64,000 nucleotides of DNA, taken from NCBI GenBank assembly GCA_028818225.1, contig JAPPOG010000045.1:62001-126000 (forward strand), written 5' to 3'. This DNA comes from Gammaproteobacteria bacterium. Lineage in GTDB: Bacteria; Pseudomonadota; Gammaproteobacteria; Pseudomonadales; Pseudohongiellaceae. This document shows, piece by piece, positions 45,595 through 47,235 of the stretch; positions within the stretch are counted from its first letter, which is position 1, and every line of letters begins with the position of its first letter. Made by a program: the position numbers and the translations under genes. The notes under the pieces were generated by a model, which was given only the letters and a program-made list of their open reading frames with translations, was not told where the DNA came from and did no database searches.

Positions 45595-45873
45595 ATGAAA
45601 GTAATCGGAAACCTTATCGTAATTTTTCTGGTGATCCTGGGGATTCTTGCGGTAATCCCGCTAGTGACCTTTGGATTCGCAATTGTCTGTGCGGTGGCAA
45701 TATTCGCAATCTGGCTGCTGCCCATCTGGATTATTGCAACATCCGATAAAACAACGGGCTTTGAAAAGATAGCCTGGCTGCTGGCTATAATTTGTCTTTC
45801 CTGGTTTGCCTGGATCTTTTATTTCTTCCTGGCGCCACTTAAACCAAAAAATCGCTACTACTATGACTACTAA
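45595..45873 (+). CDS. Small two/three-TM membrane protein (PLDc_N or PspG-like)
   Basis: 92 aa; GFEKIAWLLAIICLSWFAWIFYFFLAPLKPKNRYYYDY. Confidence 0.6.
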   Translation: MKVIGNLIVIFLVILGILAVIPLVTFGFAIVCAVAIFAIWLLPIWIIATSDKTTGFEKIAWLLAIICLSWFAWIFYFFLAPLKPKNRYYYDY

Positions 45874-46019
45874 GTAACGTGTCACAGTTACAGTGACATT
45901 TCTTTGTCCTTTGTAATATATTGCGTCCTTGACTGGTTCCGTGGGTAAGCTTTAGTTGCACGCTACCCCGAATTCCTGCATAACTTGTTTGAGAATTTCA
46001 ATAAAGGGTTGGAGAAGTA

Positions 46020-46505
46020 ATGATGAAAAAAATAACGGTTCTGCTTTCTGCGGCAGCAATGATTGTATCCAGCATAATGTTTACCTCATATGCTCAGGAC
46101 ATGACTCCGGAACAACAAGCGGCGGCAGCCGTCGATCAACGCAAGTCTCTGTTCAAGACCATTCGTTATAACCTGGCACCGATCGCTGGTATGGCGCAAG
46201 GTGCACCATTTGACGCAGAAGTTGCTGAACGCAATGCGAGAAGAATCGCAGTTATGGCAACCATGATTCCAGAAATGCTGGCTGTGGACACCAGCGCTTT
46301 TGATAATATCGAAACTACAGCACTCGACAGCATCTGGGATAACCAGGGTGATATTGCTACCAAGGCACAGGCCTTAATCGATAATGCAAACGCATTTGCC
46401 GATGCGGCAGCCACCGGCGACTTCGGTGCTTCCATGGGTGCATTCAGGGCATTCGGCGGTTCATGTGGTAACTGCCATGATACTTATCGTGTAGATACTG
46501 ACTGA
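46020..46505 (+). CDS. Cytochrome c'-like (class II) protein
   Basis: Signal peptide; four-helix type sequence with C-terminal CGNCHDTYR heme motif. Confidence 0.87.
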   Translation: MMKKITVLLSAAAMIVSSIMFTSYAQDMTPEQQAAAAVDQRKSLFKTIRYNLAPIAGMAQGAPFDAEVAERNARRIAVMATMIPEMLAVDTSAFDNIETTALDSIWDNQGDIATKAQALIDNANAFADAAATGDFGASMGAFRAFGGSCGNCHDTYRVDTD

Positions 46506-46522
46506 AGAATTCCAGTTGCAAT

Positions 46523-46555
46523 AAAAAAGGGCGACATTAGTCGCCCTTTTTTATT
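46523..46555. terminator. Bidirectional terminator
   Basis: aaaaaaGGGCGACattaGTCGCCCtttttt. Confidence 0.8.
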
Positions 46556-46874
46556 TTCCTTCGCTTTCATTAGACTTCATGCTGAATTCAGTACCAAACA
46601 TTTGTTTCTGTGTCATTTTGACGTACAAAAATGCCATGGCAAATGGAAGTAAAGTACAGAACAGAATGCGAGCTACAGTCATTAAACTCATTCCCATCTG
46701 GGGAAATAATAAATTCCATTCAAATATTAGTAAAAACCCAAAATGGCAATATATGAGTTTGTTTCGAAATCCTTTATAAATTCCAGATTTGGAATCTCGA
46801 ATTGCACTTGGGATAAACCAGGTGGCAAACAAGCTAAGTATGAATCCGTTAATTAAGAAAATGCTACTAGCCAT
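46551..46874 (-). CDS. Small three-TM membrane protein, putative immunity partner of the adjacent peptide
   Basis: 107 aa hydrophobic; start lies 2 bp after the stop of the GG-leader peptide gene. Confidence 0.5.
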   Translation of the reverse strand: MASSIFLINGFILSLFATWFIPSAIRDSKSGIYKGFRNKLIYCHFGFLLIFEWNLLFPQMGMSLMTVARILFCTLLPFAMAFLYVKMTQKQMFGTEFSMKSNESEGK

Positions 46875-46876
46875 AT

Positions 46877-47137
46877 TTATGAATTAATTGCTCCCCCAAT
46901 AACTCCCATTTCGATTGCATAAGCTCCAAACATATACCTGCCAAAGCCAGTTGTTGCGCCAGCCACTCCACCAAAAAAGCCACCAACTGCACCAGTAGCT
47001 GCGGTGCCAATTATTTGTCCCGCGTTTCCACCACCAGCGGCGGAAGACAATCCACCAGTAATACCGCCAATCACTGCGCCTGGTATTCCAAAGCCCCCAC
47101 TCACCTGTTCAATTTCACTTTGCGTTAATTCTCTCAT
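46877..47137 (-). CDS. Double-glycine leader, Gly/Ala-rich bacteriocin (class II microcin-like) precursor, 86 aa
   Basis: MRELTQSEIEQVSGG|FGIPGAVIGGITGGLSSAAGGGNAGQIIGTAATGAVGGFFGGVAGATTGFGRYMFGAYAIEMGVIGGAINS; ATG at 47137 preceded by AAAAGGAGATTGAA. Listed ORF 46877..47251 extends upstream of the likely start. Confidence 0.72.
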   Translation of the reverse strand: MRELTQSEIEQVSGGFGIPGAVIGGITGGLSSAAGGGNAGQIIGTAATGAVGGFFGGVAGATTGFGRYMFGAYAIEMGVIGGAINS

Positions 47138-47235
47138 TTCAATCTCCTTTTGAAACCTTTCATCAGTAACTTGGGAGTGTAGACCTGGATCTTTAGTAAA
47201 TAAAACTTTCGAGGAAATTAAGCTAGACTGGCACC

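Follow-up and report, generated by a model that had tools for sequence, protein, structure and literature searches.

The peptide gene and its partner

The question raised by this locus is whether a small gene with a double-glycine leader, found next to one small membrane-protein gene in the window (the 64,000-nucleotide stretch of DNA that we have analysed), belongs to a bacteriocin system, and by what route its product could leave the cell. An earlier note, made from the letters of this stretch alone, had read the two genes as a microcin-like precursor and a putative immunity gene; as there was no C39 peptidase-containing exporter in the window, it proposed that export would depend on a remote transporter. 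The host is a gammaproteobacterium that we take to be of marine type. The features discussed here are collected in Table 1.

Since both the start codon and the ribosome-binding site are conserved across homologues, the start of the precursor gene can be regarded as settled at position 47137, as the note had proposed. This ATG is preceded by AAAAGGAGATTGAA, which includes the Shine-Dalgarno motif, and the homologous peptides of other genomes have the same start codon and a similar motif. The longer reading frame originally supplied, which runs to 47251, does carry a spurious in-frame extension upstream: the extension is not conserved and the homologue at L007 has a stop codon directly upstream. 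The leader MRELTQSEIEQVSGG is of the classic GG type that had been described, and it too is conserved in homologues. Cleavage after the GG would leave a mature core of 71 aa and 6.43 kDa, with 23 Gly, 12 Ala and no Cys and with the C-terminal tail ...EMGVIGGAINS. The many GxxxG-like patterns pointed out earlier are indeed present, but with 11 of them against 6.9 in same-composition shuffles (p about 0.02) their enrichment is mild and they mostly reflect the glycine content. The AlphaFold model of the peptide (pLDDT 54) was too weak for a fold search.

The partner reading frame starts 2 bp past the peptide stop and, as had been stated, encodes a protein of three-TM topology; its AlphaFold model has three long helices, predicted with a low confidence (pLDDT 63) that was likewise too weak for a fold search. 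Neither the peptide nor the partner could be assigned to a family or fold by profile searches of Pfam, NCBIfam, PHROGs and PDB – a result that, for the candidate immunity protein, weighs against the reading we favor below. The two-gene unit is closed by a perfect hairpin with a U-run, and a sigma-70 scan for the pair gave no convincing promoter. A quinone-oxidoreductase-type gene is transcribed divergently on one flank and a cytochrome c'-like gene lies on the other, both named by eye. In the nearest relative, G082, a DrrAB-like ABC-2 transporter pair adjoins the cassette (L001:10430-12328), with similar ATPase matches in many relatives; the DrrAB-like permease has no match in the window (near 45873-46020).

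Table 1. Features of the peptide-partner unit (window coordinates) and of the exporter locus (contig coordinates).
Feature	Position	Strand	Basis
Double-glycine-leader precursor gene, 86 aa (coordinates include the stop codon)	46877..47137	-	Translation and homologues
Leader MRELTQSEIEQVSGG, 15 aa	47093..47137	-	Translation, family alignment, DNA leader pattern
Shine-Dalgarno AAGGAG	47144..47149	-	Similar sequence 5' of homologous peptides
Codon of the core's conserved C-terminal Ser	46880..46882	-	19/20 aligned family members end in Ser
Candidate immunity protein, 107 aa, three-TM	46551..46874	-	Reading frame, pairing in homologues, low-confidence model
Strong intrinsic terminator of the two-gene unit	46520..46555	-	-24 kcal/mol, z = -7.7
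Exporter operon remnant	G000:C57 11415-13753 (L088)		Acyltransferase and ACP genes intact; HlyD truncated, fused to P0007 tail

Distribution and co-diversification of the pair

A DNA pattern of the 15-codon leader, searched with one mismatch allowed, has matches in 75 of the 137 genomes of the family and its reversed control has none, which is more than chance would give. The single match in the host genome is the peptide gene itself, and among 368 genomes sampled from the class outside the family only 7 have a match. Searching with the entire peptide gives homologues in 39 of the 137 family genomes at E <= 0.01, with some doubt about the weakest; a plasmid collection gave no match to the peptide. 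The nearest homologue, that of G082 (corresponding to the public contig WLWQ01000003.1, a Pseudomonadales MAG), is 79% identical and occupies the equivalent position, with the same genes on either side. Between these two peptides pN is 0.13 and pS 0.70, in a comparison that is saturated in dS, mostly predates the deletion described below and cannot date any relaxation after exporter loss.

In nearly all of the loci examined the gene 3' of the peptide belongs to one three-TM family with a motif around FIPxAIRDxxTGxYxGFxN. The distances among peptide cores correlate with those among partners (Mantel r 0.68, p 0.0002, without correction for species phylogeny), one genome (G108) has three peptide-partner pairs in tandem, and in several loci partner genes outnumber the peptides. 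The peptide and partner families co-diversify, as expected of bacteriocin/immunity pairs. Judged by its homologues, the conserved pairing, the tandem pairs, the surplus partners and the adjacency to C39 exporters in two genomes (see below), the description of the locus as a microcin-like precursor with an immunity-type partner is well supported: the peptide is probably antibacterial and of an exported type, and the partner likely protects the producer.

The exporter operon and its loss

A C39 domain was detected in 82 of the 137 family genomes, part of these detections being weak matches to short proteins. The exporter operon of the relatives has the order LpxL/PatA-like acyltransferase – acyl carrier protein (ACP) – HlyD – C39-ABC. 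Of the 15 intact acyltransferase-type exporter loci, 12 have a gene for a 225-aa protein after C39-ABC (e.g. L062:7387-8064); this protein has no Pfam match and is RAYT/Y1 transposase-like by eye. In the window's genus the operon has a single fixed location, with a pepQ-like gene on one side and gcvP on the other, and peptide and exporter are usually unlinked, being ~250 kb apart in G082. The pair stands directly behind HlyD-C39 in G029 (acyltransferase-HlyD-C39-peptide-partner) and in G032 (HlyD-C39-peptide-partner), which physically ties the peptide family to C39 exporters. Moreover, among the genomes of the genus that are at least 90% complete, the GG leader is found in 25 of the 27 with C39 versus 7 of the 21 without (Fisher p 2e-5).

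The proposal of export through a remote transporter holds for the closest relative, with its exporter ~250 kb away, and fails for the host genome: we looked there for a C39-peptidase exporter outside the window and found none, the assembly (89 contigs, 97.5% complete) having no detectable C39 domain and the syntenic locus carrying a deletion. What remains at that locus is the remnant listed in Table 1. The HlyD homologue is cut off at about residue 333 (of 367) and runs directly into the final ~26 codons of a homologue of P0007, a conserved membrane-protein gene that is the next one after the exporter operon. Sequence equivalent to about 4.2 kb of G082 is missing, and the C39-ABC gene with it. 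The earlier note had itself held that the lack of a C39 exporter in the genome would refute its reading, and literally there is none; yet the operon remnant indicates an exporter that was lost and not one that was never present. We also considered other ABC exporters as a substitute and rejected them: the host genome has five ABC_membrane proteins, none with a C39 domain and two of PrtD type.

The host is not alone in this. At least six relatives have lost the exporter operon, with differing breakpoints, and several of them retain the peptide. At the pepQ-gcvP site of G060 and G061 there are pieces of the acyltransferase beside a truncated P0007, and in G080, G115, G132 and G079 the operon is absent with still other breakpoints (losses within L247-L260). 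The simplest reading is that the losses are independent; the assemblies are drafts, and a misjoin in any single genome is conceivable. For the host, the corresponding concern is that the living organism has the exporter, that its absence reflects a misassembled C57 junction or a gap, and that the peptide is secreted by a remote C39 exporter after all. The fragmented and slightly incomplete assembly allows for this, as does the one intact exporter of the nearest relative. However, the junction is internal to a contig of 90 kb and its flanks are normal, and the rest of the genome contains no C39, C39-ABC or further piece of P0007. The losses at the same site with different breakpoints in the relatives also show such deletions to be common in the genus, and we consider an assembly artefact quite unlikely.

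We thus favor, as fairly probable, the interpretation that this is a microcin/immunity cassette of the class II microcin kind, formerly served in trans by the pepQ-gcvP operon and orphaned by a deletion. The leader, the pairing, the homologues, the operon and the deletion in the assembly are all observed. The remaining steps would run as follows. A C39 peptidase-ABC exporter would release the Gly-rich, membrane-active-looking core, which would kill, and the small membrane protein would protect the producer. In the genus, a single chromosomal operon (acyltransferase, ACP, HlyD adaptor and C39-ABC) would serve the cassette in trans, its acyltransferase/ACP pair presumably modifying the conserved C-terminal Ser. 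In the host, the ~4.2-kb deletion has taken away C39-ABC and the last part of HlyD, and the precursor would most likely be an orphan, neither matured nor secreted. The fact that the peptide reading frame is intact despite the loss of the exporter weighs against this interpretation; the cassette may persist because little time has passed since the loss, or because the immunity gene continues to be of use.

The latter could be carried further, as a special case of the orphaned cassette: the locus might be a relic retained mainly for its immunity gene, the peptide no longer being made while resistance to producing relatives stays. Both the deleted exporter with an intact partner gene and the excess of partner genes over peptides in relatives would suit such a relic. 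Against it, the peptide reading frame and its ribosome-binding site are also intact and have been under long-term constraint, to the extent that the saturated and mostly pre-deletion comparison with G082 can tell. It seems to us possible, if somewhat unlikely.

A different kind of explanation is that the peptide is secreted for a purpose other than killing, such as biofilm formation or signalling, with the three-TM protein acting as a receptor or assembly partner for it and not as an immunity protein. Non-killing roles are documented for cyanobacterial GG peptides, for example in biofilm formation in Synechococcus (PMC4997328), and the fixed chromosomal site of the exporter operon in the genus has a housekeeping-like appearance; the former point also counts against the favored interpretation of an orphaned microcin cassette. 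Nevertheless, the patchy presence, the tandem diversified pairs, the surplus partners, the several unrelated core families in one genus and the recurrent loss suit antagonism better, and a non-killing role appears unlikely. If antagonism is the function, relatives that have repeatedly lost the exporter while keeping some peptide/immunity cassettes would provide a natural series leading from bacteriocin producers to resistant non-producers.

The acyltransferase, the ACP and the C-terminal serine

More surprising than the gene pair is the link of the acyltransferase-ACP exporter operon to a conserved last Ser. All but one of the 20 aligned members of the peptide family end in Ser, in a tail that is otherwise variable. 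Across all GG peptides of the family genomes that the leader pattern detects and that start with ATG, the last residue is Ser in 66 of 76 from genomes with the acyltransferase, in 2 of 14 from genomes with C39 and no acyltransferase, and in 12 of 19 from genomes with neither (Fisher 1.7e-7). Among the 76, Ser is penultimate in 11, and it averages 6% of the core. With related cores counted once, the clusters that end in Ser are 17/21 of the acyltransferase-associated ones versus 0/5 of the C39-only ones (p 0.002); in other families, none of nine GG peptides (seven genomes) has Ser last. Within genomes, peptides that lie beside C39 exporters without an acyltransferase (the loci of G135, G095 and G097, and also G081 and G019) have non-Ser ends, and where the adjoining exporter is of the acyltransferase type the last residue is Ser in G025, G028 and G029 and not in G047. 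The presence of the acyltransferase thus correlates with a terminal Ser across unrelated cores, with some exceptions and with phylogeny not fully controlled.

The acyltransferase of G082 passes the gathering threshold of Lip_A_acyltrans (PF03279; 32.7 vs 22.3 bits). That of the host has no Pfam match at 0.001 and matches the family profile, of which it is itself one of the 15 rows, at E 1.7e-117. This profile in turn matches PatA structures at E 1e-6. All members of the family share a His-x-Gly motif followed further on by an invariant Asp, and in a sample of 369 genomes of the class no other genome was found to have the family. The D-S-L phosphopantetheine site is retained in the ACPs. Enzymes of the LpxL/PatA-type superfamily take an acyl chain from its carrier and pass it to a hydroxyl or a comparable group, and the terminal Ser would be a plausible target. 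We therefore entertain, as a serious possibility that falls a little short of being probable, that the GG peptides of this family are acylated at the C-terminal Ser, perhaps with a fatty-acid-like group, by a dedicated LpxL/PatA-type acyltransferase with a dedicated ACP and exported by the C39 transporter of the same operon, the window peptide being an exporter-deleted member. The open-access papers that our searches turned up hold no description of an LpxL-type acyltransferase and ACP with a C39 exporter. If the link between acyltransferase and Ser is real, it would be a new kind of post-translational modification for exported double-glycine peptides.

Relation to known peptide classes

To our knowledge, only a small number of class II microcins have been validated, almost all of them from enterobacteria. 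In the present case dozens of such peptides, with cores of many types, occur across a family of non-enterobacterial gammaproteobacteria, together with a common exporter operon in which an acyltransferase and an ACP are encoded, and with a conserved last Ser. With the class IIa microcins, such as microcin V (CvaC, Cvi, CvaA, CvaB), the locus shares a 15-aa leader of the MRxLTxxExxxVSGG type, a 5-10 kDa core, an adjoining small immunity-type membrane gene and, in the relatives, the HlyD + C39-ABC export logic (PMC10233263). It differs in the chromosomal separation of cassette and exporter, in the acyltransferase and ACP that the operon adds, and in the deletion of the exporter here. Moreover, the core is unrelated to that of microcin V at the family level, the match to the Pfam microcin V family (PF17508) being below the cut-off (E 1.6; 9.8 bits vs a gathering threshold of 27). 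As regards the general features of class II, a leader of 15-18 aa that ends in GG or GA and a mature peptide of about 5-10 kDa are both present. The C39 peptidase-containing ABC transporter is absent from the host genome and present in the nearest relative, as well as beside the pairs in G029 and G032; the cognate HlyD homologue is 3'-truncated in the host and intact in relatives. Since the exporter is absent from the host's own genome, we do not claim formal membership of class II; in its relatives the pair comes with the components needed to act as a class II microcin would.

The class IIb siderophore microcins (E492, H47 and M) resemble the present system in the conserved C-terminal Ser and in maturation-type genes that travel with the exporter. 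In those microcins, too, the C-terminal Ser is the modified residue, by different enzymes (PMC6071977; PMC10233263): MceI/MceJ attach salmochelin to Ser84 of E492 (PMC6071977). However, our peptide lacks their Ser/Gly-rich C-terminal motif of about 10 residues, and the enzyme found with the exporter belongs to the LpxL/PatA type and is accompanied by an ACP. Should the acylation be real, the family would constitute an ACP-dependent class of lipidated (or otherwise acylated) microcins that evolved separately from the siderophore microcins and uses the same end of the peptide. A further possible parallel is provided by the selidamides and other lipidated ribosomal peptides, in which a fatty acyl group is added to a ribosomal peptide by a cluster-encoded acyltransferase (PMC9505594). 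The selidamide enzymes are GNAT N-acyltransferases that act on Lys or (hydroxy)ornithine of NHLP-type precursors, whereas here we have an LPLAT-type enzyme with an ACP and a terminal Ser. The ACP has a weak match (E 2.6e-4) to NCBIfam TIGR04069, the peptide maturation system acyl carrier-related protein, which at 21 bits is far below the curated cut-off of 70.

With respect to the leaders, that of the window peptide alone scores 16.4 bits against TIGR03949 (class IIb bacteriocin, lactobin A/cerein 7B), below the cut-off of 21.5. Second, unrelated double-glycine peptides occur beside the main pair at L001:7715-7909 and L067:9191-9379; both end in Ser, and the one at L001 is above the cut-off of NCBIfam bacteriocin_sig. 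Finally, at several loci (L094:6543-6713, L095:4841-4987, L016 and L020) the leaders begin with IRELT, with ATC or ATT in place of ATG, and these may use either a rare start codon or one further upstream.
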